The notes below the pieces were generated by a model. The model did no database searches. It had not been told where the DNA came from and saw only the letters and a program-made list of their open reading frames with translations. From positions 15,505,218 to 15,569,217 of the forward strand of contig OZ020514.1 in NCBI GenBank assembly GCA_963971425.1: 64,000 bases of DNA, in the 5' to 3' direction. Position numbers and translations under genes: made by a program. Position 1 is the first letter of the stretch. Each line of letters starts with the position of its first letter. The DNA comes from Bryoerythrophyllum caledonicum. Its lineage: Eukaryota; Streptophyta; Bryopsida; Pottiales; Pottiaceae. Shown here piece by piece: positions 7,721 to 38,402 of this stretch.

Positions 7721-8870
7721 TGGCGCTTGCTTTGCAACGCATTAGTCCAACCATTTCAACATAGTTTTTATGTTACAAACTATATTAAAAAAAAGGTGAC
7801 ATGATTCACTGTGCGGTTGGCTGTGCAATTAACTGCGTGGTTTACTGCACCGTTCCTATAATTCACTGTACCGTTGACTGCACGATTGATCATTGTGTGG
7901 TTCATTGTGTGGATTATGATTTTAGTAGTATGATAGTATGACTAGTAGTTGGCGCTTGCTTTGCAACGCATTAGTTCAACCATTTTAATGTAGTTTTTAT
8001 ATCACAAAATATTAAAAAGAAAGGTAACAATAATCTACATAAAATATAAATATGTCTTTGAAACCTATGCATGAATTTTGATAATGTAATAGAATCGAAT
8101 AGAAAAAAATTAATTAGGTTTTAGATTTTTTGCATTTTAACATGGAATTTCAAAAATGTTATGAATGTCAAATTTGTAATCAAGAGTTTCAAATTTATTT
8201 TGGATAAGCACAAATTGCAACACACAAATGCAAATTTCACACACCTAACAATTCAACTTGCAATTACAATCTCAAATTCACACACCCACAAACTTAATTT
8301 GCAATTACAATCTCAAATTCACACACCCACAAACTTAATTTGCAATTACAATCTCAAATTCACACACCCACAAACTCAATTTGCAATTACAATCTCAAAA
8401 CTTGCAATCTCACCTCAAAACTTGTAATTTCAATCTCCACAACTCGAATATGCAATTTTGCAACTCTAACTTTGTATGCCAACCTCCAAGATCACAACTC
8501 CAACTTCACAACTTTTTCACTCCAAGTTTACAACTCATAATTTACAATTCAATCTTTTAGTGCTTAACTCAAAAAATATTTTGAATGTCAAATTTGTAAT
8601 CAAGAGCACAAATTGCAACACACATGCAAATTTGTCACACCCAAAAACTCAAGCTAATGCTTTGCAACGCATTAGTCCAACCATTTTAATGTAGTTTTTA
8701 TATTACAAACTATATTAAAAAAAAAAGGTAACATGATTCACTGCGCAGTTGGTTGTGCAATTAACTGCGCGGTTGACTGCGCCGTTCCTATAGTTCATTG
8801 CACGGTAGACTACGCGATTGATTGCTGCATGGTTCACTACGCGGAGTATGATTATAGTAGTATGAGTGGA
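7721..8870. repeat. Non-coding repeat cluster with direct repeats
   Basis: A segment starting TTGGCGCTTGCTTTGCAACG occurs at about 7727-7940, again partly at about 7948-8030, and a shorter form starting at GCTTTGCAACGCATTAG at about 8656-8860. The first and third copies carry a run of short TGCGCGGTTGACT-like words of about 12-14 bp. A TCAAATTTGTAATCAAGAG word is also duplicated (8168 and 8588). No protein is supported; this looks like a composite non-autonomous element. Confidence 0.65.
8258..8396 (+). repeat. 41-bp tandem repeat, about 3.4 copies
   Basis: The unit starts TTGCAATTACAATCTCAAAT and includes CACACACCCACAAACT. Unit starts fall at about 8258, 8299, 8340 and 8381, a constant 41-bp period with very few differences, so it is recent or homogenised. 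Confidence 0.9.
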
Positions 8871-12515: not shown

Positions 12516-12922
12516 GGCAGGGCTCATTCTTTAAAAATACATGAATTTATTGTACTTACTTTCTTCAGAGGCTCTCCAAACAATAGGTTCTACGAAATTT
12601 CCAATGCGTGTGTTGCCTTAACTCCACCCAAAACATCCGTGGAAGATGAGTCTTCCTATCTGCAAATAATGAAATCATAGAAAGGTAATGGAACTTGGAA
12701 GTTGTAGTCTTGTAAGACCACGTTGCCCATGATTCTAGACTTTTCACGTTAGGGAGTAGCATTGGAGGATGACAAGGCATTGTGGATTTGTATAATGTGA
12801 TTAACAAAAGCAACTACAGAAAAGGATCTATATTGTCTAGAATATGATCCATTGTTGCTTAGAGTCGCCTACAAAATAAAAATAACAATACAACCCTGAA
12901 GAAATATGATATAAACAACAAT
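12516..12922. other. Left flank of the large element
   Basis: AT-rich sequence with no supported gene; a short minus-strand frame at 12,565-12,813 has no recognisable domain and may be decayed Harbinger sequence. The CAAT at 12,919-12,922 is the candidate target-site duplication of the large element. Confidence 0.4.
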
Positions 12923-12950
12923 AACGGATATTTAACTAAATATGGACAAA
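12923..12950 (+). repeat. Left terminal inverted repeat
   Basis: 28 bases starting AACGGATATT and ending TGGACAAA; exact reverse complement of 29,639-29,666. Inside it ATATTTA-AC-TAAATAT is itself palindromic. Preceded directly by CAAT. Confidence 0.9.
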
Positions 12951-13206
12951 TCGATCAATTATGGACCAAAAAACAACTTAGACTCGGATTTCATTTCCTA
13001 TATCATACAAAAAAACAAGAAAATATGGGCTAAATCCTAAACATATACATTCGAAATTGCGTGCCACCAAACATTGTCCCACACAAAACTATAATAATTG
13101 TCTCATATCATAATAAAGTCTCTTCAAAACCACTAGAATCCTTAACTTTAAGCGTTGGCTGTCAATCCACAAAATCTAAAGATTCTCCAAAAACCTACAG
13201 ATTCTC

Positions 13207-13300
13207 CGTAGACCCTAAATACTCTCCCAGACCCTAAATATTCTCTCAGACCCTAAATATTCCCCTTGAACCCTAAAAAATCTCCATATGCCCTAAGGAT
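13207..13300 (+). repeat. Telo-box-like tandem repeat in the left subterminal region
   Basis: CCCTAAA occurs at about 13,213, 13,232, 13,251 and 13,271, with CCCTAAG at 13,291. The words are 19-20 bp apart and embedded in a CTCTCAGACCCTAAATATT-like unit. CCCTAAA is the plant telomere unit and telo-box core. Confidence 0.75.
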
Positions 13301-13742
13301 TCTTGAAGACAGAATTAAAGGTCGGGGGCCAGCCGACAAAGAAAGAGGAGGAATCAGAATCACCGAATATTTTTATAGAAGAAATCTCATGATTAAAAAA
13401 GGTGAGTAAAAAAACTCCAATGATTAAACAAATTATTCGAAAAATGGGATGAAAAATAAGGTGATAATTTGGAAATTAAACCAAAAATATGAAGCAATGA
13501 GAGGTGGTCAACATGAAAACGAAGTACGTGGTTTGTCCTACGAGTCCAGACATCGGCCGGCAGCCGACGGACAACAGAGACTTTAGAGGACAACAAACAA
13601 AGAAGGCTCCCGGAAGGCAGCTCGCAAAAATAGTAGCAGTTGGCAGAATGATCTCCTGAACAATTATGGAAACACTAAGAGAGTAAAGGCAAGAGTAAGA
13701 AGGGCAAACAGATGATCTCCAAACTCGAAATAAAAAAAGGTT

Positions 13743-13759
13743 GTCGGCTGGCAGCCGAC
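13743..13759. repeat. Perfect 17-bp palindrome, left subterminal
   Basis: Exact consensus; one of four copies clustered within 610 bp in the left subterminal region. Confidence 0.9.
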
Positions 13760-14209
13760 AAGAAGAACTTCAATGATAAAGAATGAAATCCTGCCAACAG
13801 AATGTTGTGAAAAAAGCATCCATCAAGTAAGTCCGGCAAAGTGGGTAAAACAATACAAGTGATCAATCTGAAGACAGAAACAAAGAAGAGGAAGTGGGTT
13901 TCATAAATAGATGACTGCCCATTGGCAGCACGTAAAATACTGAACATACATAAACAACCATCAAGAGAATACATTGATAACAAAATTCTATTATACACAG
14001 CATTCTACAAAGCACAACATTAAAACAGAAAGGTAAAACAAGCTTGACTAAAATAAAGTACATCAAGGATAAGATTCGAATAGAGCACGATATTTTAGTC
14101 CAAATAAATGTTACATTTGGAGGTGCCCCATAGATGGCAGCAGTCTGGAAAATCGATTAGAGAAAAGCAACTGCAGAGGACTATTTACAAGTTGAACTAC
14201 ACTTGACAT

Positions 14210-14644
14210 CTACCAGTTCTTGCGCCATGCAGGAGCGTACATATCGGAGTCCACGTCCGAACCGGTGTCGCATCCAGTTTCAAATGGATTACCCGAAAAG
14301 CTTGAAAACGAATCGCTGTCAAAGTTTCCGGTAGCCCACAAGTCCACCTCGTCCGATCCATTGCAGTGGAGGTCATCTTCATCAGAGCATCCTAACTGTG
14401 CAACGACATGCTGACCGCCATCGTCGTCTGAATCGACATCGTGGTTGGACTCCTCTTCGTCATCTTCCTCGTTCCAATTCTCCTCATGAACGTCAGTTGA
14501 TGGAACAGTGCTATCCACAGAGTTTTCAGACATTATACTATTCTGAGACTCTGCCTCCCTGGTAACTCTGGCCTCATTTGCCTCCCTCTCCTCCCTTTCC
14601 TCTCTCGCTCTCCTGACAAGCGCCATACTACGAGTCTCAACCAT
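14210..14644 (-). CDS. Small acidic protein with charged coiled-coil start
   Basis: 144 residues from ATG 14,644-14,642 to a stop at 14,210. It starts MVETRSMALVRRAREEREER, an Arg/Glu-rich probable coiled coil, and continues into a Ser/Asp/Glu-rich acidic tail with several Asp/Glu runs and a final AWRKNW. I recognise no family. A decayed counterpart with the same MVETR start and a CDTG.D.DS segment lies at 47.9-48.3 kb beyond the second transposase-like copy, so the gene belongs to the element. The frame extends upstream of the ATG across an acceptor-like TTTCCAG, so it may instead be a last exon. A regulatory or accessory role is only a guess. Confidence 0.55.
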   Translation of the reverse strand: MVETRSMALVRRAREEREEREANEARVTREAESQNSIMSENSVDSTVPSTDVHEENWNEEDDEEESNHDVDSDDDGGQHVVAQLGCSDEDDLHCNGSDEVDLWATGNFDSDSFSSFSGNPFETGCDTGSDVDSDMYAPAWRKNW

Positions 14645-15119
14645 GTCGTCGGCTGGAAACAGAATCAGACTAAGAAAAGAAGAAATCACTCCAACCTGTG
14701 GCAAATATAAACCAAGATACACAAAAACAACTGAACACAATGAGATACTTCACATACAGTGAATCCGTGAATTTATAATTCACTTGCCGCAAATTGTGCA
14801 CCAACAATAATTACTCATTGACAACTACCCATCTACTCGTCATAATGATACCGAGCAACACACGTGCCACAGATTTAAGTCTTTCCTTCACACGCACGAA
14901 GACTTTGACCACGAAAAATGGATCGAACTGCATATGCAAAATACAGAGGTTGTCGGGTGGCAGCCGACAAAAATAACACCAACTACTCAGACTGAGATCA
15001 TGACAGATGAGTTACTTGAAAAATGTATCAATGGCCGAATGACCGGCAGATACTACTGTTCCAGGCAGCATTCAAATTAAAATATGATGAACTAATTACA
15101 TTGCAGAAAACATCAACCC

Positions 15120-15136
15120 GTCGGCTGGCAGCCGAC
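15120..15136. repeat. Perfect 17-bp palindrome after the transposase-like stop codon
   Basis: Exact consensus, 13 nt downstream (minus strand) of the TGA at 15,152-15,150. The second element has a degenerate copy 11 nt after the matching stop (47,360). Confidence 0.9.
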
Positions 15137-15149
15137 CAAGAAAATGATA

Positions 15150-18100
15150 TCATTCGCTACTGCCATGAACAGAGATGCCACCAGCCTCCAAACAAGCCAT
15201 TGCAGCGCTCGTTGCTTCACGTGGGATACGATGGGTCTTTGGAGGCCCACGCTTATTATGAGATGGGTAGCGATGCGAGAAGAGAACGATTCTACAGTTC
15301 TGAACATCTGGATCCCTGTGCTCACGCTCCGACCGCCTATTCCAGCACTCCTTCCCGATGATCTTCTTAGAATCTTTCTTGGTCGTGAGTGGAACCCACC
15401 ATTCAACTTTAAAGTTTCCGTAGGAATCCCGAGGACTGTGGTGGACGCACTCCAGTACCCGGCCCATCCACACAGGAAGGTAATGCCCAGTGCAAGGTCG
15501 GCAGAGAACAAAATCACCAAGGAGAACATCACGAAATGGATTGAAGGATAATTTCGGACGGCTCATTTCGGGGCCGCAGAAAGGGTAAGCGTCAGGTTCA
15601 TCTTCTGGTGTGACATCCAAGCCGGAAATAATTGCATCCGGCTGTGACGCAGCGTGAGCATGATCACGCATCCAGTCCGATTTCGGCTAGAATCCTTCTA
15701 GCAGACAGTCGGGGTTTGGTGGGAGAGGACCGGATATTAGTTGTAAAAGACGCTCCCAATAATCAATCAAAGGTTCCATATCCGCGGCATATCGTTTGTC
15801 TCGAGCCATGCCCGTCCTCCAGAACTCAATATACTTTGGAATACCGTTCTTGATAAAGGACTGCTTCTCGCTGTTTCCAGTCGCTCTTGCAACCTCCTTC
15901 TCCTTGTTTCGCTTCGATTCGTTGACATGAACGTCACCCCAAAGCGGCTTGAAGGGTACTGATTTTGGATCACCAATCGGAAGGTTTGGATTCCCGAATT
16001 GATCCGCCGTCCACATCTTCACAGGCTTATCTGAATGCAATATACAAGAAAGTTAGACAGAGACAAGAATGCAATGAAATGGAAGGAATGAAGGACAAAA
16101 GAAGCACAAAGGTAAAATCCATCGGCTGGCAGCCGACATATAAGTAACAAGAAAATCAACAGAAAATAAATGCAAACATAACAATGACAAAAACAAATGA
16201 GCCTCACCTGGAGGGAGCCATGATGAATTCGTCGCACTTCTCTTGTATCTCATGACCGGCCATCCCGCATCTTCACCTTCCTCTTCAACGTAAAATTTGA
16301 AAAGGTGCATCTCACCAAGGCCAACAAGCTTATTCTTGCCTTCGTGATGGTAATCAGCAATGTAACTTTTGAAATCAGCAACCTCTTGAACAAGTTCAGG
16401 AATAAAGGCTACTATCTTCTGAGAGTCCATGAAAAATTTCATGAGGTCAGCTAAGCAGTAAATGTTTTTCCGTTTGATGAATTTTGAAAGGTAACTAAAA
16501 TGCGCGTCAATGTCTTCATGAGTGTGGCCGACAATCAAGAATCCCACAGTCACTTCCTTAAAAATTCGTCTGGCTGTGAGAAGCAAACAGAAGGCCATGA
16601 CGAACCTGTTCTTGTTATCCTTTGCAGAGTTATCAAGTTGGAGATACAGTTTCCGAGGAAGCTTAACTTCCGGTTGAGCGAGCGAAGAAACTGGAAGCGG
16701 ATCGCCCCTAGCTTCTGGAATCGACGAACTACATCTAGATTTACCGCGGAGTAAAGATTCAAAGAACGAATTCTGAGGTGGACATGTAAAAAGCTGCTTT
16801 GACTCACACACAGGTCGGCGCTCCAGTGCCCGAAGAACACGGCAAATGGACGAAATTGTGAAATTGGAGTCCCCAGGCCATAAGGACGTGGAGTAATGCG
16901 CATACGCATCGTCGCCGTGACCGTGAGTAAGCATGCCAGTACATGAAATAGGAATCTGTCCAAGACCTGCGGTCGCTTTCGTAATCCGCTGCATTCTTGG
17001 AATGGCCGTCTTTGAAGTATCCATCTTGTCGTGAATAATGCAGAGAAACTCAGACGGGTAATTAATGGACTGAGATGTCCATCCGGAGTACACATTATGG
17101 CAAGCACTTTGGTAGTTGAGATGTCGCGCCCGATCATCATGCAGTGCTTGCCACTTGTCGGACCCGCGAGGATATTTGGCTAGAAACTCAACCAGATAGT
17201 CACACTCGGTACATCTCGAAAAGTTGCTACCCACGGCCTTCACTTCAACGTTCCGAAAAAACTTCCGTTTCAATCGACTAACAGCAGATTGCGAAATCGG
17301 CTTGACACAACATTCAGAGTTCACCTGGAATCGAAAGAGATAGCGATCAAGACTAATGAAGTAGAATTAATGAGATGCAAAAATAGACATGCATCGGCTG
17401 TCAGCCGACACAATGGGATATATGAGCAAGTCAAATGTACAAGTAGTAATAATGTTAAACCATACCAGGTTGGACATATCACGGAGATGATTCCAGTCCA
17501 TCGCAGCAGGAAGAACCATCAGAGATGCAACCCTCTTGTTGCCGATGACTCGAAACTCATTTGGCATGTGGTCTGCATTATCGTTGATGATTCTGGAAAT
17601 GGTCCCTTGAGCCTGAATTGTCTGAGACCTAGGGCGCAAAATTCCCGCATTTCCATGACCGCCATTTACACGTCCGTTCAATGAATCCGATTTATACTTG
17701 TAGTATGCAGACTTGGAGACGCCATGAATGCGAAACCACGCAACTTCGCAAACATCGACACCATGCAGAGTTATGAAGGGTTTCCGGAAGCTAGGAACAT
17801 CGTGGAGTTGGCCCTGAACAGCGTACGCAGTTTCACGCCGTTGCTCAAAGCTTGAGGAGTAGAACTGCTGGCGGATTCTACAAGTGTCCGCCCAAAGAAA
17901 AATCTGACAGCATCGTCTCGAACAACACTTTTTCGAACTAACAAGTTGACAAGAATCTTTGGACTGGAGGCGTCGAAAGTTGGTAACAGAAACATCGCAC
18001 TTCTGCTTAAGCTTCCGTTTCATACCTCTGTATGGATCCTTGACCACCCCCTCAAGCCCGTCATCTCTACATGTGGCTTGATTGTGCTCAGAGCAGTAGA

Positions 18101-19226
18101 TGAGGCACTCTGACAGCAGTGGACCACCTTCAAGGCGCGTGTGCGAAATCTTCCAGCGCAGCGTCATCATCTAAAGATCCTCATGCTCAGAAACAAAGAA
18201 TACGCCAACGTCTGTGTCACCCAAAACGTCCGCATCACATGTTTCATGCGGGAGACAAACTTGAATCATCGCCCGCCCAACTAAAGCGAGATTATTGTCG
18301 AGCAAATGGCAGTACTTGTTCCTCCATTGTGGTCTATCCGGATACTGAAATTGATCACAATTGACCCCTGAAGGGAAGGTTGCTTCAATCGGTGGTTGAT
18401 CAGTTGAACGTCGGCTGCCAGCCGACGGAACGTCCTCATATCGCTCTCGACATGCTTCGGAGTCGCTTCCCGAATCCACATTGAATCCTGTGGACACTTG
18501 AAAAGTGTTGTCATCATAGATCCTGTCCCTGCGATCGTCGTCATCCAAAGCGCCTGACATCTCACTCACTGAATATTCATCAGATGAGGAGTATCCAGTG
18601 TCGTCACCGACACGCATGGGGCGAACTCGATAGCCACTCCAGAGAACAAGGTTATCCATCGTGTCACCAAGCGAGATCACCTCATGGAGCTCGCAGTATG
18701 CGGTATGAGTGAGGAACTTAACATTTACTGTCTGGACTCGGACAACCAGGAAAAAGCTCTGAGGAATTAGGAACCCTTCCCACGATCCCTTTGGTGAGCA
18801 CTCATTGATAACTCCAACGCCTGCACAACAGCTGTGACCCATGACATCAACAAGGAGGGCAACCTTCATTCCGTCACGAAGGTTCAGAAACGACAGAACT
18901 GGTTTGATATCCTCGACGGGTTGCAATATGGATTCCGGTTGATCCTCATTGAGTTCGTCGATGAAAGCGAATGGACGCAGGTCAGCCGCATCCCAATCGA
19001 TTGACCGGCCAGAGCATTCGCGAAGCATGGATAGTCCATCAATTGGGACCGGGATGGGCATTTCCATCGAATTGGAAACATCGATTACCTTGACACGAAT
19101 AATCCATGGATCCCTCAGAATGATTTTTTGAACAACTGCGCGTCCAGCATAATAGAGACCTGAGTAAGTTAGGGCGACTTGAACACCTTTGCGTGGCTTC
19201 CATCAACCTGATTTTCCGTTCTTCAT
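15150..19226 (-). pseudogene. DDE-type transposase-like protein (DUF7869-like), 3 exons, three in-frame stops
   Basis: Exons 19226-17466, 17324-16208 and 16030-15150 join in frame to 1,253 codons. N-terminal half: Cys-rich segment (CCSRRCCQIFLWADTCRIRQ) and a KSAYYKYKS region. Second exon: IIHDKMDTSKTA, THGHGDDAYAHY, LYLQLDNSAKDNKNRF and VGHTHEDIDAHFS. This Asp...Asp-Asn...His-Glu-Asp order is the RNase H/DDE-like pattern of eukaryotic DUF7869 proteins. The last exon has a GDFVLCRP...VEWWVP module resembling a BAH or Tudor-like fold. In-frame stops: TGA 19,205-19,203 just after the putative start, TAG 18,173-18,171 and TAG 15,689-15,687. All else is open, so decay is slight. Both introns carry the palindrome. 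Transposase role is inferred from family and from its place in a TIR element; DUF7869 assignment is from memory. Confidence 0.75.
18410..18426. repeat. Perfect 17-bp palindrome inside a coding exon
   Basis: Exact consensus lying in the open frame of the transposase-like gene, unless a small unrecognised intron covers it. The matching place in the second element (44,607) has a degenerate copy. Confidence 0.9.
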
Positions 19227-20983
19227 AAACGATAAAATGGGTCCGCAGTCCAAGATCTAGAATGCCAACTGGGCTTCATCCGCTGGGAGCCGACAAAATT
19301 TGTCGAAGATATCAACCTATGGATCCAGCTCGAGAACGGCTCACAAATAGGGAGTGTGTGAATGCATGCGTCACATAGTCAAAACTGATGCATTAGGTTT
19401 TTGGATTAGGGTTCAAGATTAGGGTTTCGAGTTTTGGGTGAACTTCCAAAGGATTTCAGTGCTTTTGCATGAGACTTGGGAATCTGTGATTCGGAAAGAG
19501 CATGTGCGTGATTTCTTGGAATAAAGATACAAACTGAGAAGGTGCACTTTTGTACACACATTTGGTTCCAGTGTTTAGGGTATCAAGACTTCAGGTAGTC
19601 AGGTGATCAACGCAGAATCAGCGTTAAGGTGAGGCAACAAGGTCGACTTACATAGTATCAAATTGCATCTCAAAATCTAGAAAGCTGCAGGACAATACAC
19701 TGATTTTACTGAACATGGAATCTGAGCTCTAACCGGAGAAAGCATTGAACTTAATTGAACCAGACATGATCGCCTAAACCATAAATGAACGCCTACTTCC
19801 GGTAAGTGCTTGTCAACGCGCAACAGGTAGAATGCTTGAATGCTAAATACAGCCAGTGCACAAAAGTGCAAAGCGGATGATCTAAGCTGAGACAATAACT
19901 ATACTACACGAAAGCGTGTGAGAGCAGGTGTAATAAAGAGAAGCAGACGAGAAATGACAGAGGATACGGAGTAGATGCGTTGATATCCCTCTCTCAGCTG
20001 AACAATATGCGCGAAAGTCGATTTTGAAATTTCGCGCCAGAAACACCTTCGTGGATTCGCGCCCAGAAATTCGAGCGCATTCATTCTTGGATTTCAAATT
20101 CAAATTTGAACAAAATCGAATGTGAAATTTCAACACGAAACTTCCTTGCGAAATTCGAAAAGATTTTTTCAGAGAATCAAAAACAAAATATAAATGACGA
20201 GGAAGAATGAGTCGAATCCGAAAGCCAAACTAAAAAGAAATTTCAAAAAATCAAAGAATATATAAAAGAGACATTTAAGAAAATCTAAATTAGAATATTA
20301 AAAAGAAAGTTACATCAGATCAAAAAAACGACAAGTAAATATTAATATTGGAAAATTATAAAATAAATTTAAATGAAATTGAAAATGCCAACTATAAATC
20401 CAGCCGGTTGGATGAAAACTGACAGACTACCGAGACTATCAAACAATCAGACTACTGAGACGCTTCGATGGCCTTTCGATTAAGGACGAAAATTGATCGA
20501 ACGGTCGCGGCGTTCAGATTTGAGGACGAATAAAAGGTCAGGCTTCCACCAAACCGGGTCATTTGCAATCTACTCTTCCTGGTTTAGTTAAGCAGCTTCA
20601 GGAATAGGTTGTAAGACTTTTCCTTGTTTAGGACTGAATCCGTCCGCGGCCACCTGATGTAGTGTTTCCGGAAGTTGAAGAAAGTAGTGGAGGAGCACCT
20701 AGCAGGCAGAACGAGGCGGAGGAGCTCAAGCGCTAGAGTCAAAGTGACCAGCCGACGGGTTTTTTCCAGCAGCCGACAAAATGACGTCAGTCGATAGGTA
20801 TAATTCTCTTTCACCGTCGGCTGCCAGCCAACGGCAAGCTGTATATATTTTGGATTTTTTCAATTCTTAGTTCCATTGAATGAAGTAATGCTATATATTG
20901 TAGCAATTGTGCTCTGTTCCAATGGTAATCTTTAGTGTCGGCTGCCAGCCGATGACGTTCTACTCAGATGTGGCTCACGAGCA
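19227..20983. promoter_or_regulatory. Central divergent promoter of the large element
   Basis: About 1.75 kb between the two divergent blocks with no supported gene. It holds palindromes at 19278, 20816 and 20937 and half sites near 20,750-20,777. ATTAGGGTT telo-box-like words occur at about 19,405 and 19,419. A plus-strand TATATAAAAG at about 20,259 and TGTATATATT near 20,840 are candidate core promoter elements. 20,200-20,400 is strongly AT-rich. The palindrome at 20937 is followed by CTACTCAG, a possible 5' UTR splice acceptor. Confidence 0.6.
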
Positions 20984-23900
20984 ATGCTCGCTATTTTGTT
21001 GCGCAGGTTGAGTAAGTTGAAGTGGCTATTTGGGCCTTGTATTAGTGAGGACGAGGCAGTCTGGCTCGATAATCGGGTACCGAATGCCACATTCGAGGCT
21101 CGTCCTGAATTGACCGAATGGGGCATTACCTGGAGGCTAGGGGAGGTGATTGAAATGGGAATCAACGGGAAGCACTTGGGCAAGAGTTTTCTTGGTGGAA
21201 ACCTTGTCGCCGTGATGGATATTATGGAAGATCCTGAGGACGACAACTGTATTCGACTCCTACTGAAGGTGAAGGTTCGAGTTGCCGACGACGACTCGGA
21301 GTCCTATGTTGTTCGAATTCGCTGGGCCCTCTGCTCACAGGAGCTCTGCACGTCAGCACAGGAGGTGGGCATGCAATTTACCGACTTGCACCTAGAGAGC
21401 CGCGCGGAATTGGTCGAATGCTTTATGCAGGCGAAGGACCAAAGAGTGGCACTCAATGGCGGATCTGAGGGAAATGGCAGACGTAAAGTTGCAAAGAAGC
21501 CTAGGGCCTCAAAAAAGGCTAGCAGTTCTGCGCTGACTGTTGTTGTTGTGGCACCTGATCCGGCTATGAAGAAGCGGGCGTCGAAGAAAACTGCGAAGGA
21601 GAAGACGGTGGCCGAAGCGTTGGTATGTCTGAACAACCTCTCATCCAATACCAACAGTAAGGAGGTCGAAGAGATGAACAACACGGTCGAGTAAGGATTA
21701 GGGCGTTGTTATCCGTTTGGGCAACAGGTTCTGCCAGTAAAGATTCATTCGTCAAAGATCCACCTTGCGCCCCATGGAATGGTCCATCGTGAACTCGTCG
21801 AAAGGCGCCTTGACCAGCTTCGAATCATCTACAAAGCTGTTGGTCCTTGGTGGGCAAAACCGCCACTATACTGCGTTCCTCTGCGTGCTCCACCAGGTTC
21901 TGCTCAAGATGGCAAGGAGTTAAAGGATATGGAACTTCTTCGCAGGAGCGTGCCGAAAATGATGGAGGACCAAGTTCATTTCGGCGGTCAAACGTACAAG
22001 TAGTATGATGAACCAAATTATCATTGGTTCATCATTGGTGGGCAGCACACATATACTGTGTGTAAGGAGCTCGGAGTGATGGAGGACCCCAAATCGTCGA
22101 AAGCTAAGTATTTCATGGAGTGGGACATTATCGTTCTCTGGTCGAATACTCAAGACGACCTGGTGAAAATTTCGAACCTCCTGAATGTTGATGTTGCCGA
22201 GAAGAAAGCGGAAGAGACCTACGTTCCCCAGCTTCGTAGAATGAGGGAGAGGTGGATTGAGCTTGGTCGCGTTGACAAGCTTCAAGACCATGCTGCCTGG
22301 AAGGTACTTTTAGTGCTCACTTGTTTGTTCATGCTCATCTTGTTGTTTGGCTTCAGTGTATCTGACCGTCGGCTGGCAGCCAACGGCCTTACATGTGTTG
22401 GAACCTGACTCTATTCATCGTGATTGTTGCAGGATTTTTGCAAGAATCACCTCACTGTGATTATGAGTAAGGCTAAAGACGTGGAGACCGAGAAGCTACC
22501 CCTTGTTTTCGTTCTTGATGATCTCTACAACAAGTGGCAAGTGGTTTTCACCGCTTGGCAGATGGGTCAATTAATTGGGGAGAACGGTCAACCTCCTCTT
22601 CAGATTCCACGAATGCCGCAGCGGGAGATCACGTACACGGACCTTTCGTACCTCGTCAACCTACGTGATGAGGACTCCATAAAGCTGGCTGAGGCGTTTC
22701 TGGATAAGAAGGTGTATATTAAGGTGAACGCAGGAAAGGAGAAGGGGGCTATTGGTGTGTCGATGAAGTCGTGGGTGAAAGATGTAAAGATGAACTACAT
22801 CATCAAAAACGAATTGATGCTGAAGTAACACGAGTATCCACTGAAGAAGCCTGGAGAGTCCGCATATGCCCCTTGGGCGTATGAGCAGTTTTCGTTGCTT
22901 GCCGCTAAGAAGGGTATCAACAATGAAACCCTTGATAACATCCGATGCGAATTGGAGCAGTCTGATGTTGGCTCAGCATTCCTGAAGGGGAGGAACAACG
23001 GGATTACTCCAACGACCAATGAGGCCCCGCCCAAGTTCTGGTCGGCAGTAAAGAAGTACGCCGTTCTTTGTGATGAGGATCTGGTTGATGAATTTGCTAT
23101 TCGCTTTGATGTTTGTGTTGCGAAGGGGCTTGTCAAACTGGTGAAGAAGATTGACGACAAAGGAGACGTGCAACTCGAGAAGGGAGCTCGCGAGATGATC
23201 GTTGTGTTTGGATTCGACGAAGCCGGGGAATCGATCTTTATAGGCAAAGACGGGCTCAAAGCAATTGTGCAGAGGGTGCTGCGAGTGAGTGATGATGAAC
23301 AGTCTCAGATTTTCGCTCCTACAATTCTTATTACCGATGACAACTCCAGTTTCCAAATCGAGTCGGAATGTCGCAGTTCGACAGGAATATGTGCCGTCCA
23401 CACAATTCGCTACCTCCTTGACAGTAGCCGGAAGTTCAAGTTGTCGGCCATGCACAACAGACCTCTGGCTAACGTCGGAATCCTCTACAACAAACCTAGT
23501 GATGAGCGTGAAAGATTCACCCAGTTCAAGAAGGTGACGGGACTGATGGAGCCTCTAAATCCTACCTATGACGACGCTGCTTCGCCCTCGTCCGAGAGCT
23601 GGTGTGGAGATGTGTGCAATCCATGCATGGGTTTGCTCACCGCAATATTGAGTCCCACCTTAGCGGTGAAGGAATCAAACCCGACTGTCTTCAATGCCTG
23701 GCGTGGTGGGAATGTCACAGCCTTGGCCTTGGTTGGTTTCCTTTACCCTTGTCGTGCTTGCTCTTTTTTTTTTGTCCTGCATTTTCTAGTTCTTGCCATT
23801 GCATGTCGTCGGCTGATAGCCAACAGTTTTCTGCAGCGGGTTTCTGACTTATCTTCTCGTATTTTTTCTCAGCGAGCGAAAGCAACTGTGATTGAGTTTG

Positions 23901-25960
23901 TGCGCGAGGAAGCTGACATTGCTATCGCGAAGGAGCGCGTTAAGAATATGTCGTTTCTCCCACAGCCGTCTGGTGTTTCTAATCGAATCACCTGGCCTCA
24001 GCCGTCGGATTCGACATTTGTTGCTACCCAGCTTGCACAGACTTCTGGGCCACCGCCAAAGGTTGTGGAAGACGATGAATTTTCTCGTCTTGCTCGGAAG
24101 GTTGTGGATGAGTTTGTGGTTCAATCTACCCAAGCATCCATGTCACGGAATTCGTTGGATGTGTATGATTTATCGGACGACCAGACATCTGATCATGATT
24201 ATGGGATAAATGAAGAGAAGACCAATCTTGACCATCTGATTACCCATATCGTCCAAGGACCTCAGTCATCCATGCCGGATGTTTTGCCTACAATAGTGGA
24301 AGAGGCGATGCGTTCCGGGTCTGTGGTCATCAATTTGACCGAGCAACCGCAAGTCGAAACAGTTGTCCGGACTGGCGTCTCATTTGTAGCGGGTACTAAT
24401 GCAAAGACTGTCCACCCGCCGAATCTCGCAACGGACCCTGCTGCCCGAAGATCGATTACTTGAGATTCTCGAGTGGTCCCGCCGGGACCTAAGAATGAAG
24501 TTCCCGTAATTTCAACGGGTACTGGCGTCTCTCTTGGAAGCCCAAAAGCAAAGAAGGCAAAGACTTCCAGCAAAACTTCATGGAAGAAGCGGGCGACGTC
24601 TCCATCGGCAAAGACGAAGGGTTCTGCTGCAAAGCGTGGTTCAAGAAGCAATTCTTCTTCCAGACCGAACACCCCAATGACCCCCGAAGGCAAAGATCTC
24701 CCAAACGAGTCCATGTCTCATGTCGTGGATCGCGCAGGCAATCCATCTGGAGGTTAGTTTTATAGTTAGCTTACTGTAGGTTCAGAATTTAGTGACCTAG
24801 CGTGCAACTAATTTTCTGAAATATTTATAAACCCATCATGATTCTGTGCTGGGATACCCTGCTAATTTTATATTTGATTTTCTGAATTATTCTCTGACCT
24901 TGTCTAATCTTCTGAGTCGGTTCGTCGGCTGGCAGCCGATAAGGGATCTAATGTCCTTTAATGGTCTTTCTTTAAATCAGCTGATCGGGGGACTAGTACT
25001 CATGTACTTGCTGCTTCTGGTGCAGTCGAGCAGGTTGGTGCAGATCGAGAATCCGAAGCGTTTGAGCACATGGTTCAGGTGGGTTTGACACCCCTTAAAG
25101 ATTACGTCCTTGTACTTGAATTGAATGGTTTGGTTCTCACGCATGGCGCTGACCGTGTTACAAAGTTCCGGCCTCACACCCAAGAATTTCTCAAGTACTG
25201 TGTTGATAATTTTACTGTCGTGATTTGGAGTTCCGAAAGTCCGGCTGGAGTGGGGATTCTTCTTAACGACCTGCAAGATCAGTTCAAATTCATTCTTCAA
25301 AGAATCAAACACGTCTTCGATAATACCCTTTGCGACGTAGCTCGGTATTCTATTGATGGCAAGAAGTTCTACCTGAAGAGGCTATCAACATTATTTCTTA
25401 GTTATGGGGATTTGATAGGGAAAGGAGCCAATAGCGCCAACACCCTCTTGATTGACGTTCATCCGTACTCGAACGTCAAGAATTCTCCATATAACGCCAT
25501 TCATCCCATACCCTACATTCTCACTTCAACTGAGACTGCCAAAGAGAGTAGGCAAGCCCTCTCGGTGATAACTTCCTTTCTGAGTGCGATGAAGGAAGTG
25601 GGCTGGACTGTACCCTTGTACACCTCAACTGTGGACCACCTTATCCTGGTGAAGAAGTTCGCCTTGCCCTTTCAAAGTGACAAGCATCGTCATCCTCGTC
25701 CTCAAGTTGCAAATCCGGAGTTGAATGATGGGCTCTCAGCGAGTGTAGACGTGGTCTTACCTGATGCTGCCGTCGTCTCTGATGTGCCTTCCGGCCGTAG
25801 GGTGACCTTTCTTGAACCTAAGCCTGTCGACCCTTATAAGACTCGGCTGGTAGCCGTCCCGGGGAACCCTCGGTTGCTTCCTGGAGAACCCGAATGGGAG
25901 CAGTTTCTTTGGTCCTTTCCAAGCGAGAAGCGTCGAAGGTCACTTCCAAGTAGACGTTAG
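20984..25960 (+). pseudogene. ParB-like GGQH protein with C-terminal FCP1-like domain (unit I), 4 exons, four in-frame stops
   Basis: Exons 20984-22303, 22433-23731, 23873-24752 and 24981-25960 join in frame to 1,493 codons. Order: unknown N-terminal domain with VRIRWALCSQELC; Lys/Arg-rich likely nuclear signals; a ParB/Srx-like region with VKIHSSKIHLAPHGMVHREL and, 130 residues on, WFIIGGQHTYTVCKELG; a long central region with no recognised domain; a Ser/Lys-rich linker; and an FCP1/NLI-like domain (VLVLELNGLVL, VVIWSS, KRLSTLF, LLIDVHP). GGQH is also kept in the second element. The HAD motif I aspartates are replaced (ELN for DxD). In-frame stops: TAA 21692, TAG 22001, TAA 22826, TGA 24461; otherwise open. 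The final TAG is matched by a stop at the same place in the second element, so it is genuine. All three introns contain the palindrome. Start codon uncertain. Confidence 0.7.
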
Positions 25961-25968
25961 ATCAATCC

Positions 25969-25985
25969 GTCGGCTGCCAGCCGAC
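25969..25985. repeat. Perfect 17-bp palindrome after the first FCP1-like stop
   Basis: Exact consensus, 8 nt after the TAG at 25,958-25,960. Confidence 0.9.
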
Positions 25986-26171
25986 GCTTAAATTCATTAC
26001 ATTTCTTTTCATGACATTCGTCATGACTATGGAATTATATTTTTTGTTCGCACATAGATATTATCTTTGTGTGAATGTTTACCCCTAATAAATATCGATT
26101 GTAATTATCTCAAGTTCCTATGCACTTCATGGGTTCTTAATTCATGCATCGTCATCCATTCATTTTTTCAG

Positions 26172-26885
26172 GTTGACTCTGGAGTTGGCGACGCAAGTGA
26201 GTGGTCTTTATCGCTCCGCGCCGGACCATCTGAGAAGGTCAATAAGTACTTCCTTGTCTTATCCTTGAACGATCTCTTAATGGCGCAAGGTGTTGGAGCC
26301 GACAGGAAATGGCATACCATCTTTCGGCCGATGCTGAAAGAGTTTCTCGAGTTCTGTGTTTCCAACTTCACTATGGCAGTTTGGAGTGACCAATCCAGCT
26401 CTTTTTTGAAGTTACAAATGATAGCTCTCGAGGGACAGTGTAGCATTGTTAGAGAAATTATACATCGTTTCCACAACAGTTTCTGCGACACAGCGGCGAC
26501 ATCGTTCAACGGTCAAACTCTATATATTCGAAGGCTTTCTACTCTGTTTTTGCATCCGTCCGGCCTGTTAGGCACTGGAGCGAATAGCCTAAACACTCTT
26601 CTTCTCGACTGCTGTCGTTTTGCTAATGTCCGGAACAGTCCCCTCAATGTCATGCATCCCCTGACGTTCGATCTGACTTCGAAGGAGACCCTGAAGAATG
26701 TCGTTCTTCCTACTGTTGTTCAGTTCCTTTCCGGTTTGGTTTCTTCGGGATTGCCTGTTCCTGAGTATGTTTGTGAGAAAATCGATTCGACCGGATATCC
26801 TAGACTCTGGCCCGATGACCCAAAGTGGGCGGAATACGTCGAAGCTTATCCCAGCTTGATGCGTCTTAGTATTTCTTCCTCTTAG
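26172..26885 (+). CDS. FCP1/NLI-like pseudophosphatase unit II
   Basis: Open frame beginning after a clear acceptor (TTTTTTCAG, 26,163-26,171) and ending TAG 26,883-26,885. Contains FLVLSLNDLLMAQ (motif I with both Asp replaced), RPMLKEFLEFC, MAVWSDQ, RRLSTLF and LLLDCCRFANVRNSPLNVMH, the same order as unit I. It has no start codon of its own near the domain, so it is probably a terminal exon of a longer transcript. The matching unit in the second element (37.9-38.4 kb) also ends in a stop followed 9 nt later by the palindrome. Catalytic phosphatase activity is unlikely; peptide or CTD binding is a possible role. Confidence 0.6.
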   Translation, partial: VDSGVGDASEWSLSLRAGPSEKVNKYFLVLSLNDLLMAQGVGADRKWHTIFRPMLKEFLEFCVSNFTMAVWSDQSSSFLKLQMIALEGQCSIVREIIHRFHNSFCDTAATSFNGQTLYIRRLSTLFLHPSGLLGTGANSLNTLLLDCCRFANVRNSPLNVMHPLTFDLTSKETLKNVVLPTVVQFLSGLVSSGLPVPEYVCEKIDSTGYPRLWPDDPKWAEYVEAYPSLMRLSISSS

Positions 26886-26894
26886 GATTGTAGC

Positions 26895-26911
26895 GTCGGC
26901 TGGCAGCCGAC
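26895..26911. repeat. Perfect 17-bp palindrome after the second FCP1-like stop
   Basis: Exact consensus, 9 nt after the TAG at 26,883-26,885. Its counterpart at 37,765 is also 9 nt after the matching stop. Confidence 0.9.
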
Positions 26912-27053
26912 GCCCTCGAATGTTCATTTTGTCAGACCTTTCTTGACTTGCTGTAAATACAATTTTTGGGTAATAAAGCTCTTTTGTTTTTTGAACAATT
27001 ATTTGTGATTGGTGCCTCACTGAATCTATGCATGTCTGCTTTATTGACTTCAG

Positions 27054-28253
27054 ATGCAAAATTTATTCCTTGAAGTCGGAGTTCCTGGGGATATTTCGCA
27101 CCAATTTGCAGTTGCGACTGATCTAAGAGACGTTGACTTGACGGATATCTCCCCGCGCTTCAGCTGCTTTCACTCATTGTTGGGAGATTATGAGAGACTA
27201 GAGCATCAAGAATTACCTGTTGCGGCAAGCGGTCTTGGATTTCATGTCGATTCTGGCCAATGTTCACTTCAGCGTGTCGGAGAGCCTGTTGTTGTAATCA
27301 AACCTGTTGTCGTAGTTGAGATCGTGTCACCGATGCATCCTGGGAATATCGCTGTCGCTTCTGGCTCCACCCGCTGTCACATTGAGGTGGTAGACACCGA
27401 CGATTTAGTTTCTGATGGTGCTTGTCCTATCGATGTCAATGTTGTCGGCTCCAAGCCGACACTTTCGTCTGCTTCAGATCCAACTGCCGACCTCAACTCC
27501 GATTTGGTTCACAGGAACATTCAGGTGGGTCCTTCAAGCTACTACCTCGTCCTTGAACTAAGGGGGCTTCTCTTCGCCGAAAGTTTTGTTTGTCGTGGCA
27601 ATGCTAAGAAGAAGAGCTTTTATCAGAAATCCAGGCCTGGGCTTCGAGAGTTCCTTGCTTTCTGCCAGTCGTCCTTTTCGTTGGCCTTTTGGTCAACCGA
27701 TAATTCCAGAGCGATCCATCGACACATGGATCACTTGTTTGAAGTTTTCCCTCACTTGCGAAAGAACACAAAAGTGTTGGGCACTACGTACTGTGATTCC
27801 TCTGCGGCCAAGAATCCCTCGACTTTAGCTGCGCCGCTGCTGAAGAGGTTAGCCCGAATGTTTTCTGATAGACGCATTTTAATCGGGCCTGATGCAAATG
27901 AGCGGAACACGCTTCTCGTTGATCCCTTTCCTCTCCAGAATATCCTCAATAGCCCCAATAATACTGTTCATCCTTCTCTATTTAAGTATAATATTCCGGA
28001 GATCTCAGTTCCCGGGATGGAGCCTTATCTATTGAGTGCGTTAGTTCCCTTTCTCTCGGGACTTTTGAAGTCTCGAGTCAATGTTCAGGAGTATTGCCAT
28101 GCAAATTGGGAATTTGGAACTTCTCAACTTTACCCTGGGTCGTTTCAACATCAAAAGTACAGGGAGGTCATCTATCCCCAGGCCTTGGGTTTCGACGCTC
28201 CATACTGTCCCGATGAATTGGAATCGAAGCTGTTAATAACCTACTCGATCTAA
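27054..28253 (+). CDS. FCP1/NLI-like pseudophosphatase unit III
   Basis: Frame of 399 residues from ATG 27,054, which directly follows an acceptor-like TGACTTCAG, to TAA 28,253. About 155 residues of unrecognised sequence precede the domain: YYLVLELRGLLFAE, RPGLREFLAFC, LAFWSTD, KRLARMF and NTLLVDPFPLQN. Motif I is ELR instead of DxD. The palindrome at 27444 lies in the frame, just before HRNIQ-GTGGGT, where a splice site is possible, so the first part could include an intron. The second element has the matching unit at 37.1-37.4 kb with a palindrome at the equivalent place (37,293). Confidence 0.6.
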   Translation: MQNLFLEVGVPGDISHQFAVATDLRDVDLTDISPRFSCFHSLLGDYERLEHQELPVAASGLGFHVDSGQCSLQRVGEPVVVIKPVVVVEIVSPMHPGNIAVASGSTRCHIEVVDTDDLVSDGACPIDVNVVGSKPTLSSASDPTADLNSDLVHRNIQVGPSSYYLVLELRGLLFAESFVCRGNAKKKSFYQKSRPGLREFLAFCQSSFSLAFWSTDNSRAIHRHMDHLFEVFPHLRKNTKVLGTTYCDSSAAKNPSTLAAPLLKRLARMFSDRRILIGPDANERNTLLVDPFPLQNILNSPNNTVHPSLFKYNIPEISVPGMEPYLLSALVPFLSGLLKSRVNVQEYCHANWEFGTSQLYPGSFQHQKYREVIYPQALGFDAPYCPDELESKLLITYSI

Positions 28254-28465
28254 GTATTCATCTATTCTAGAATGGGCTTTTTCGAGTTTCTATTCCTCTT
28301 TATTGCTACAAACAATCAGAAACTGATCCTTCTTTCCTTGTAATTTCTTAAGTTTTGTGATTTTATGATATATTTTCAAATTCCAGCTTTCCTGTGTGTA
28401 TGTATTGCCTTTATCACATGTCTGTGCGTCATCTCTGATGATGGTCATGTGCTTTGTTATGCCCC

Positions 28466-28482
28466 GTCGGCTGGCAGCCGAC
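28466..28482. repeat. Perfect 17-bp palindrome between FCP1-like units III and IV
   Basis: Exact consensus, about 67 nt before the acceptor of the fourth FCP1-like exon. Confidence 0.9.
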
Positions 28483-28549
28483 GGTACAGTGTTTTCATCT
28501 TTCCGTAATATTCGGCATCATGACGATTGTCTTCTTTTTGATTTTCCAG

Positions 28550-29227
28550 GGGTCATCCTTTTATTTCAAATGCTTATATGGAACCCCTTCACCGTATCGA
28601 AAGTGTGTTGTCCTCTGTGTCAATGGGCTCCTTTGCTTTGTAAAACCGCGTGTGCCAATTTTTGGTTCTTGCACTTGTAAGAATATTGTTCGCCGGCCGG
28701 GCCTGAAGAAACTTTTTGATATGTTGCTCCCTTGCTATAACGTCGCGCTTAGGTCAACGTTGCCGATGGAGGAGTTACAACTTGTCTTGCGGCATATTCT
28801 TCCGGTTGGTGTTATAGATAGGCTGTCATTTGTCTATAGCAGACGTGACTTAGCGCAGAACAAAAATTTTCCTTGGAGTTACAAAACGATGTCTATTCTT
28901 TCTAAGAAGAATCATTCGCGTTCTGTCTGCCTGCCTCATCAAGTTCTGTTCGTGGATGTGAACCCAAGGTCTCTCAGGAAAAATCCCGACAACATTTGTT
29001 ATATTCCCTGGCCGTTTCAGGGTCATTTGAGCCTTCGAGACAATGACCATGTTATTCCTAATGTGGTGACTGACATCCTTCCCTTCATCCATTCGCTCCA
29101 CAGATTTTCAAGCGTGCCTGAATATTTGGAGCAAGCACATCGACCTAGTCAGTCTCATTGGGCGGTTTCAAAGGCGCGTGAGTGTGGGCGCACAGTTGTC
29201 CGATGGGACGAAATCGAATGGTACTAG
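28550..29227 (+). CDS. FCP1/NLI-like pseudophosphatase unit IV
   Basis: Frame begins after the acceptor ATTTTCCAG (28,541-28,549) and ends TAG 29,225-29,227. Contains CVVLCVNGLLCFV (motif I with C and N in place of the Asp residues), RRPGLKKLFDML, ALRSTL and VLFVDVNPRSLRKN, and lacks a nearby start codon. It is the most divergent of the four units. A palindrome (TTCGGCTGCCAGCCAAT) starts 9 nt after the stop. The second element retains about 70 codons of it at 36.24-36.45 kb. Probably another terminal exon or the last gene of the block. Confidence 0.55.
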   Translation, partial: GSSFYFKCLYGTPSPYRKCVVLCVNGLLCFVKPRVPIFGSCTCKNIVRRPGLKKLFDMLLPCYNVALRSTLPMEELQLVLRHILPVGVIDRLSFVYSRRDLAQNKNFPWSYKTMSILSKKNHSRSVCLPHQVLFVDVNPRSLRKNPDNICYIPWPFQGHLSLRDNDHVIPNVVTDILPFIHSLHRFSSVPEYLEQAHRPSQSHWAVSKARECGRTVVRWDEIEWY

Positions 29228-29638
29228 GTCTTCTCCTTCGGCTGCCAGCCAATGGTCTTCAAATTAGTTTTTGTCCGTGAGTTTAAGGATGCATTTTGTA
29301 AAGTTCATGAAAGTGAACATTTGTGTTGTATAATTTGATTTTGAAGGTTCATGTACTAGTCATTAGTTTCTGTTCAACTTTATTACAGGATGGTTTCTTC
29401 TAGGAAGTTGTATTTGTTTGTTCTCGAGATGTTCACCTTATCCTGGTTGGCTGCCAGCCGACACTGTAATTTGTTCTGATCAATAAACCTCTCTTTTTTG
29501 CAACTGGTATATGTTATTTTGGGACATCGGATTTGTCGATTGTGTTTTTCTTGCTTTATTACTTTTGGCCTCTGCTGCCCGCCGACTAAGTTTTTTCTCA
29601 GTGACTTGTTTTTGACTCTTTTTATTTCTGGACTTTGT

Positions 29639-29666
29639 TTTGTCCATATTTAGTTAAATATCCGTT
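29639..29666 (-). repeat. Right terminal inverted repeat
   Basis: Exact reverse complement of 12,923-12,950, followed directly by CAAT (29,667-29,670). Outside the repeats the two flanks differ, as expected for element ends. Confidence 0.9.
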
Positions 29667-29670
29667 CAAT

Positions 29671-35882: not shown

Positions 35883-35910
35883 ATAGGATATTTAATTAAA
35901 TTTGGACAAA
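35883..35910 (+). repeat. Terminal repeat of the second large element
   Basis: Matches 12,923-12,950 at 24 of 28 bases (core GGATATTTAA, ending TGGACAAA). It corresponds to the right end of copy 1 because copy 2 is inverted. Confidence 0.75.
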
Positions 35911-36240
35911 CTGAAGTCTTAAATTAAAAATCTCCCTTCCTCGGCAATTGGTAGCTCGTTGAAAAAGAATAACCACTCCTTAAAACATGTGAACATGAGT
36001 ATGAATTTCAAATGACATTTGGATGTTGCAAACAAGGAGAAAAGAAGAATATACTGTAAACAAAAATATATTGATGTAATAGGAATAAATGTCGACAGCT
36101 AGCCAAGAATAATTTAGTAGAGTACCCGCTAAACTTCACAAAGATGCTTCTTTTTATGAAGTACATGCATTGTTTTATAACTCCAAGGGAAATTTAAACG
36201 ATCAGCTAAGTCACTTCTACTATAAACAAATGACAATCTG

Positions 36241-36450
36241 TCAATGACGCCTTTCGGAAGAATGTGAAGCTAGAGTGGTTATAACTTGCCCATTGGCATT
36301 GTCAACTAGAGTCCAACAATAAAAGTGAGGGAGTGTCATTTTCAAAAGTTTTTTTGGGCCCGGCCTACGGATAATATTCGCATGAGAGCTAGCAAAGGAT
36401 GTTGAAATGCAAGGGTCCACAAAGCAAAGAAGCCCATCGACGCAAAGCAC
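36241..36450 (-). pseudogene. FCP1-like unit IV remnant (copy 2)
   Basis: Reads MLCVDGLLCFVDPC, ANIIRRPGPKKLLKMTLP, matching unit IV of copy 1. About 70 codons survive; the rest is lost or frameshifted. Motif I here reads CVDG, so one aspartate is present that copy 1 lacks. Confidence 0.65.
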
Positions 36451-37144
36451 AATACATTTTCAAATTGGTGATGGAGGAGCATGCATGCATTTGAAATAAA
36501 AGGATGTTCCCTGGAAAATGGTACAATAAACTCGTCATCATGCGGAATATGGATGCAACTGAGACAATAGGCTTTGTTGGCTACTAGTAGATGGAGAAAG
36601 ACTACAATGAGGACAACGAGAACATCCTAGACATTGGCCCTGATAAGAATTAAGCCTGATATAATCCTAGATGTTGAGTTTGGACTCTAGAAGTCCATTG
36701 AGCCATGAATTATCAAATTAACAAGATACGGCTGTAATCCATTTGATGTATTTTTTGGGGGAGTATATGTATATATGGATGGATGAATTCATTAAAGAAG
36801 TCATTGAGGATATTCTCGAGGGAGATAATCAATGAGATGGGTGTTCTTCTCATTAACATATGGCCTGATAAGAAGGCACTTATCTTTGAACATGCGAGTA
36901 TGTCTCTTGAGCAATGTGTTGCACTTCATTGTTTTGAGATTCAACCATAGAAAGGTATCACAACACGGAGGCCCAACTCTCGGATGTCATCGTAAAGGTC
37001 GAGGTACACCTGGCACCGTTGAGCCATGTGTCTCATCGTGGATTCAAATTTCTTGGTAGATCAGAATGCCAATGAAAAGTTAGATTGGTAGAATGTGAGG
37101 AAGTCTAGAAGCCTCGACCTAGATTTGTGATGAAATTGGGCCTT

Positions 37145-37480
37145 CTAATCTTTTCTACAATCGCCCTGACATTTAGCCATCAAGAGCCTTCTAACTTCAA
37201 AGACAAGGTAGTATCTTGACGGACCTACGTGGATGTTCTTTGGAACAATTTCGGAGCTCATGTTGGCAACTGGTAATGGAGTTGATGAAGTAGTCGGTTG
37301 GCAGGCGACCAGATAGACTGCTTGAGGCAAAGTCACATTGGAGACCATCGCTCGGTTGTCGACTACTTCCTTGAAAAGACGGTCGATGTTGTAAACAACA
37401 AACACATTTCTGGACACTCGGATGTTGCGCGGTCACAGACAATAGGAGGAGCAATAAGAGACATTTGCAGTAGGAGTGGG
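37145..37480 (-). pseudogene. FCP1-like unit III remnant (copy 2)
   Basis: Contains SEIVPKNIHVGPSRYYLVFE then VRRLLMA, aligned with HRNIQVGPSSYYLVLELRGL of copy 1, then ends early. A degenerate palindrome (37,293-37,309) sits upstream of it as in copy 1. Confidence 0.65.
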
Positions 37481-37790
37481 CTTTCTCTCCCGTAACAAGT
37501 AATGAACACCGAGATCATAATCCTCCCCACCTATGTTGTCTGTTGGTAGAATGAAGTACGATTCTTTTGCATTTAGGTGCTTCTGCGTGAATCCACCCAT
37601 ATCTCTAATATCCACAACACAACTGTCAGCCAAATACCGTCATGCAAATGAAATACAAGTAGCTAAATGCATGGGACATCGTGATTACTAAAAGATATTT
37701 TATTTAGAAGTTATGAGTGATTACAATAAGTCTTTACAGGGCTGTCAAAATGAGCAGAGATGGCGTCCGTTGCCAGCTGACTCCAAATTC

Positions 37791-38402
37791 CTATGCAACA
37801 GTAAGAATTTGACGCCTATGGTTGGAATACACTAAAACGTATTGATTTCACTTTGGATCATTGGATCAGAGTTAAGGATACCTAGACAAAGGGTTCATAC
37901 GAATATATTCGAGTACAAGCAAATATGACCCAACCAAACCGGAAAGGAACTTTATAACCCTGAGAAGAATAATGTTCAATTTAGACTTTTTTGATCCTAG
38001 GTTGAATGTCAGTGGATGCAAAGCATTTAATGGAATATTTTTGGCCTTTATGTAAGGATAGTCGTCAAGCAAAAGAATGTTGCAGCTATTTATGCTATTA
38101 CCATACAAGGCCTCTCAATCCAAAACAAGAGTAGAAAGCCTGCGGAGGTAATAGTCTTTGACTTTTTTGTGAACTCAAAGATATCACTGAAGAAATTATC
38201 ATATTTGTATCTGACTAGAAATTACATTTTTGCATTGACATTTAAGGGCTAACAACTTTGCGGAGAGCCTGGTTTGGCTTGTCACTTCAAAGTACAATAG
38301 TAAAGTGGTCAACATAGTAGTCGAGGAAGTCTTTAAGCTTGTGCCAAAAGATGGTATGCCATTTTTTGTCCTTGCGTGTGTCAGGTGCCATTTACAGACC
38401 AT
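37791..38402 (-). pseudogene. FCP1-like unit II remnant (copy 2)
   Basis: Best preserved part reads NILLLDDYPYIKAKNIPLNA and FNLGSKKSKLNIILLRVIKF. Note LLLDDYP: the motif IV Asp pair is intact here, unlike copy 1 (LLLDCCR). Several stops interrupt the frame. The end-of-domain stop (37,793-37,791) is at the same place as in copy 1 and the palindrome follows 9 nt later. Confidence 0.65.

Follow-up and report, generated by a model that had tools for sequence, protein, structure and literature searches.

A 17-bp palindrome with a family-specific preferred letter is dispersed along a DUF7869-carrying DNA transposon of a moss

What is the role of a 17-bp palindrome that recurs about once per kilobase along a single mobile element? 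The palindrome lies in a 64-kb window (the whole stretch of moss DNA that was analysed), where the original prediction assigned it to a span, 13154-29586, that proves too short: the whole DNA transposon, 16.7 kb in length, extends over 12923-29666. Its ends were located by matching TIRs. The left 28-bp TIR, AACGGATATTTAACTAAATATGGACAAA (12923-12950, plus strand), has its inverse at the right end (29639-29666, minus strand), with no mismatch between left and right, and the pair is flanked by the TSD CAAT (12919-12922 and 29667-29670), whose 4-bp length is also found in the mini-elements described below. The minus strand carries a multi-exon gene with a DUF7869 domain (15150-19202), in which the ORF at 16053-17366 matches PF25273 with an E value of 7.5e-44. 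The plus strand carries a second gene without known domain (20984-24460), which has a conserved HWYIIGGQHTY stretch and is interrupted by stop codons in this copy; in the relative, HTH_36 is matched weakly (15.3 bits against a cut-off of 25, E 0.017). Four tandem plus-strand ORFs with degenerate NIF/FCP1-like phosphatase domains follow at 24962-29227 (PF03031, each above the curated cut-off). DxDx is the catalytic motif of such phosphatases, and by eye it looks lost in these four domains. With a PF25273 domain, TIRs and a TSD of fixed length, the element is thus a DUF7869-carrying DNA transposon.

At least 97 genomic rows match the DUF7869 ORF. Another group of DUF7869 matches is very numerous: it comprises at least 150 rows, many of which lie in one uninterrupted long frame of about 1075 aa, and it is absent from all 14 control genomes. 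Searches of the DUF7869 ORF against the PDB gave no relatives at E 1, a search of the window against Rfam gave no match, and no relatives were confirmed in viral contigs. Outside the element, the window also holds direct repeats at 8233-8437 (41-bp spacing) and 49877-50257 (mostly 38 bp).

At up to three mismatches, the 17-mer matches 22 positions in the element, of which six (13743, 15120, 18410, 25969, 26895 and 28466) are exact on one strand; these are the numbers originally predicted. Copy 2, an inverted, decayed relative on the minus strand at 35884-48331, holds six sites at the same threshold, and the predicted total of about ten is reached only if more decayed sites are admitted. The remainder of the window holds none, in agreement with the claim that RAD54, the Gypsy element and the MULE are free of the palindrome. 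That chance cannot explain this density is borne out by two controls. The 64 kb contain 49 strand-matches at up to three mismatches against a mean of 0.04 in shuffled sequence (largest value 2), and 200 control palindromes, whose arms were scrambled at unchanged composition, averaged 0.055 matches in the element, with a maximum of 4. Restriction of the palindrome to the element, as first described, holds within the window; genome-wide (437.4 Mb), there are 428 exact sites of the type found in the element, and so sites beyond these two copies, while the reversed control has none.

The symmetry of the palindrome is that of two 8-bp arms flanking one central base, GTCGGCTG-S-CAGCCGAC, rather than the 7-bp stem and 3-nt loop initially described: positions 8 and 10 are also complementary. 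At position 8, G occupies 38 of the 42 half-sites in the window element (21 sites; the weak site 25842, with three mismatches, was excluded from half-site and spacing statistics) and 37 of 40 in a relative, C2. At the centre of the window-element sites, G (10 sites) and C (9 sites) are about equally frequent, with one T and one A, as expected if the site has no strand.

Where do the sites lie? Coding blocks were told apart from gaps by comparing the window element with C2, whose alignable blocks are 65-75% identical. Three left subterminal palindromes (13321, 13552 and 13743; together 13321-13759) are accompanied by a weaker one at 13154. Two more lie at 14952-15136, the second of which (15120-15136) begins 13 nt past the stop codon of the minus-strand DUF7869 gene, and two occupy apparent introns of that gene (16121-16137 and 17393-17409). 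The palindrome at 18410-18426 is within coding sequence, where the same frame reads DVPSAGSRR in the window and DVPSAGRRQ in the related family. A weak palindrome separates the divergent genes (19278-19294), and a pair at 20816 and 20937 (20816-20953) is upstream of the plus-strand genes. Within the second gene, one site is in an apparent intron (22368-22384) and another (23808-23824) stands between the conserved blocks 23733 and 23879, where the frame is open and the sequence is either intron or coding. The NIF region has a palindrome upstream of its first ORF and just upstream of a conserved block (24924-24940), the weak site within that ORF (25842-25858), one 8 nt past a stop codon (25969-25985), one 9 nt past a stop codon in a layout shared by the related family (26895-26911), one in an open frame that is probably coding (27444-27460), and one just upstream of the last NIF-domain block (28466-28482). 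The right subterminal palindromes are 29237, which is 9 nt past a stop codon, 29446 and 29570 (29237-29586).

Site spacing is more even than chance. The predicted frequency of about one site per kilobase agrees with a dispersed arrangement at intervals of about 1 kb, within which some local pairs are 120-230 bp apart. The largest gap among the 21 window-element sites, 1538 bp, was reached by 0.2% of uniform placements (P 0.002), and that among 20 sites of C2, 1491 bp, has P 0.0075, under a model that ignores exclusion of sites from coding sequence and with the right end of C2 set at 17600, its right TIR not having been found in the stretch fetched. The evenness of site clusters gave P 0.002 for the window element and 0.036 for C2; cluster number itself is unremarkable (P 0.20 and 0.18, respectively).

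The well-sampled sites keep fixed orthologous positions. Five sites between 14952 and 18410 could be followed through homologous loci, some of which overlap: 14952 in 29, 15120 in 30, 16121 in 29, 17393 in 29 and 18410 in 25; sites outside this stretch are covered in zero to two loci only. The five occur at the same positions across these loci, with scattered changes, and the copies that have them in orthologous places are 87-97% alike. Many copies show decay, and site 16121 is partly deleted in one copy (L033) and badly changed in another (L038). In copy 2, which is older and has 63-86% nucleotide identity to the element by aligned block, block coordinates identify sites 47515, 37293 and 37765 as counterparts of 14952, 27444 and 26895, respectively.

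Comparison with C2 reveals constraint on the arms of the palindrome and a preferred half-site letter that is specific to the family. Thirteen of the 21 window sites were paired with C2 sites. With positions 7, 9 and 11 set aside, the 14 arm positions that remain are identical in 168 of 182 comparisons (92%), as against 210 of 520 (40%) in the 20-bp flanks; the alignments used for pairing contained the sites, which raises site identity. Position 7 agrees in two of the 13 pairs and differs in 11, position 11 agrees in five, and the two often change together. Over half-sites, position 7 of the window element is T in 39, G in 2 and C in 1 of 42 (T-type), and that of C2 is G in 28, T in 10 and C in 2 of 40, giving a half-site that is mostly GTCGGCGG (G-type). 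By site, nine of the 20 in C2 have G in both halves, eight are mixed G/T, one has T in both, and two contain a C; thus at least one half is changed in 19 of the 20 sites examined. Mixed sites, for example 8939 and 7880, recur in near copies of C2. A blastn alignment covers the site at C2 positions 3533, 4518, 8939 and 14408, and at 18410 the family difference consists of two point differences inside an aligned coding stretch.

Genome-wide, the 428 exact T-type sites are accompanied by 197 exact G-type sites and by an A-variant at one place. The 100 T-type places listed first, all of them in the initial 36.5 Mb of contig C1, include 84 with a T-type neighbour within 20 kb, where 11 would be expected under uniform placement, and none with an exact G-type site within 20 kb, with 40 G-type sites in the same 36.5 Mb. 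Copy 2 and locus L045 look T-type and locus L044 mostly G-type, each from few readable sites. In the best tree, built from 16 of the 38 DUF7869 rows available, the type has to change twice; an independent double origin of the G-type motif was set aside, one origin not being rejected (p-AU 0.244).

The palindromes are also retained in mini-elements. Three isolated exact T-type sites (L001-L003) lie inside short elements, some 330 bp long, whose TIRs are related, and a search with one such mini-element returned at least 40 candidates that span 281 or more of its 333 bases. Ten were fetched, representing five insertion contexts (two of them shared by four and three loci), and all ten have both palindromes near their ends, the right one exact in eight. 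The 4-bp duplications of the five contexts, read by eye, are ATGT, ATTT, TTAA, ACAA and CTCT. Five more were fetched from a second subgroup; four of them pass the filter for both sites, and by eye four of five have a perfect 4-bp duplication, the fifth matching in three of four letters. The mini-elements are non-coding, their homology to the large elements is confined to end pieces and palindromes, and all 15 fetched are T-type. A T-type site together with the TIR core TTTGTCCA within 10-40 bp occurs in 44 matches against one for the G-type pattern, although at least one of the 44 (C2:5696297) is an internal intron site of a large element, not a TIR. Several mini-elements (L049-L058) sit in one larger repeat, itself multi-copy.

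Do the sites remain within the family elsewhere in the genome? Thirteen further isolated exact sites, eight G-type (L064-L069, L071 and L072) and five T-type (L074-L078), were fetched together with some 400 bp of flank to either side; with L001-L003, these cover 8 of the 16 T-type singletons. Twelve of the 13 lie in homologues of the matching family at E 1e-6; in this sample, restriction to the family holds. Two shorter stretches, L070 and L073, also match, L073 being the same place as L078. The thirteenth, L068 (C1:17647570-17648390), has no homology to the reference elements at this threshold. Its 820 bp contain four sites that are G-type or mixed, and it may represent the diverged end of an element or else a different family. 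Contig C1 may be a special chromosome: it makes up 65.2 of 437.4 Mb and holds 52 of the best 97 DUF7869 rows and 97 of the 197 exact G-type sites. Of the 40 mini-element rows scored, only five are on C1, the rest being on ten other contigs.

We propose that the palindromes are recognition sites in duplex DNA for a putative dimeric protein encoded by the element, with a role in anti-silencing, in end recognition, or in both; we hold this to be about as probable as all else taken together. Each palindrome would comprise two 8-bp half-sites in inverted orientation, separated by a single base pair and bound together by a dimer. The protein would cover the element at intervals of about 1 kb, through introns, UTRs, intergenic and terminal DNA and one clear coding case. 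Most likely, the sites would keep the element accessible through anti-silencing of the sequence-specific kind that VANC provides for VANDAL elements, and those adjacent to the TIRs would help the mobility machinery to recognize the ends. We infer a duplex-binding dimer encoded by the element from the constraint on a symmetric word, the differing preferred letters of the families and the retention of the sites in non-coding derivatives; in particular, because two families in one genome prefer different letters, the reader is more plausibly the element's own than the host's. More tentatively, and with somewhat less than even confidence, we suggest that this is an independently evolved self-recognition code, in which the dimer reads a palindrome about every kilobase, coding sequence included, and families split by one half-site letter each address mainly themselves and their own mini-elements. 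Several observations pull against the proposal. The letter switch in C2 is not uniform, with mixed, T-only and C-containing sites among its 20; the mini-elements could simply have inherited palindromes along with their ends; site 16121 is lost or badly changed in two copies; the sites 8-13 nt after four stop codons could be explained by a role in RNA; and the weak HTH_36 match is the sole hint of DNA binding among the element's proteins.

How do other explanations fare against the same evidence? That mini-elements keep one site near each TIR would also suit a TnpA-like transposition accessory factor, whose sites would pair and cut the ends, the internal copies being spare or regulatory, and the pairing of T-type sites with the TIR core (44 matches, of which one or more are internal, against one G-type) points the same way. 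However, most sites are internal and evenly spread, and end pairing needs neither; moreover, the nearest good sites of the window element are about 200-800 bp from its ends. We regard such a factor as rather unlikely to be the main reason for the sites. An RNA hairpin of 6-7 bp in introns and 3'UTRs, bound by an element protein or guiding processing or export, would account for the sites that closely follow four stop codons (three at 8-9 nt, one at 13 nt), for others in apparent introns, and for the frequent joint change of positions 7 and 11. The sites, mixed ones included, fold at -9.4 to -10.7 kcal/mol; mixed half-sites, once considered as proof against RNA, are weakened as an argument, since the mixed folds are of similar stability to the pure ones. 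Yet sites are also found towards the element's ends, between genes and within the roughly 330-bp non-coding mini-elements (though these may be transcribed), G-N-C is kept as the central triplet even though it would be loop, and the central base has no strand preference. An RNA-hairpin role is therefore less likely, and we consider it doubtful.

Two further possibilities, both touched on in the original prediction, concern the origin of the array and the nature of its reader. Dimer-type palindromes spread along the element call to mind a ParB/parS-like system, in which a ParB-type protein would load and spread for the segregation or condensation of an extrachromosomal form, and the short HWYIIGGQHTY stretch of the second gene resembles ParB. 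Against this, Pfam, NCBIfam, PHROGs and PDB sequences gave no ParB match: the pieces of the second gene and the profiles searched were negative in all four, PDB rows at E 0.014-5 being taken as chance, and ParB identity of the gene found no support there. We judge this explanation highly improbable. The many near-identical 17-mers inside one element would likewise follow if a mini-element or simple repeat had spread within the larger one by insertion or gene conversion, but the sites are at orthologous places in copies 87-97% alike and in relatives, and the families differ at 18410 by single letters. Such spreading is scarcely credible. Among the three ideas first put forward, a protein-binding site is thus the best supported, while its ParB-like form found no backing in the databases. 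Literature searches, with most subscription journals outside their coverage, returned no paper for DUF7869, and none of the papers listed contained either full 17-mer.

Finally, how does the proposed protein-DNA recognition compare with known systems? CACTA/Spm elements have subterminal repeats that bind TnpA and are kept in non-autonomous derivatives, and they have CACTA-type termini and a 3-bp TSD. The moss element is similar in having multiple short sites for an element-encoded protein, putative here, that are kept in non-autonomous derivatives. In contrast to the subterminal sites of CACTA/Spm, most of its sites are internal, and its TIR begins AACGGATATTT and its TSD is 4 bp, so that membership of CACTA is ruled out by termini and TSD length. 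ParB/parS systems also use a palindrome for a dimer, with several sites per replicon. The likeness lies in the dimer-type palindrome and the several sites per unit; the moss case, however, is a eukaryotic transposon in which sequence searches found no ParB homology.

The closest resemblance is to the VANDAL elements of Arabidopsis and their VANC-target motifs (Hosaka et al. 2017, PMC5735166; Sasaki et al. 2023, PMC10398659). For VANDAL, it is proven that a transposon can counter silencing in a sequence-specific way (PMC5735166), and for the moss element we infer it. In both systems a short, family-restricted motif recurs across the non-coding stretches of a DNA transposon, in the moss element with 18410 (coding) and 27444 (probably coding) as exceptions in the sample fetched, and related families have variant letters, C2 also holding mixed sites. 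The reader is the element's own protein, as has been demonstrated for VANDAL and as would be the case in the moss. The VANDAL motif is nine bases, YAGTATTAY, in dense same-orientation arrays that are often fast-turnover tandem repeats, and the domains of VANC proteins are named as DUF1985/DUF287 (PMC5735166). The moss sites, by contrast, are 17-bp palindromes that are dispersed about 1 kb apart, evenly spaced and conserved in position, and that occur in coding sequence and mini-elements as well; DUF1985 and DUF287 are absent from the Pfam matches of the 10 window ORFs and 9 ORFs of the relative that were scanned. Since the scanned ORFs contain no VANC domain and the sites do not form dense arrays, the element is not a member of the VANC system, which it resembles in site layout and variation. 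If our proposal is correct, it would be a second, unrelated system, whose palindromic sites are fixed and countable, implying that sequence-specific anti-silencing codes arise repeatedly, and it would offer a clean case of co-evolution between one protein and about 20 separate sites, with two specificities resident in the same genome.
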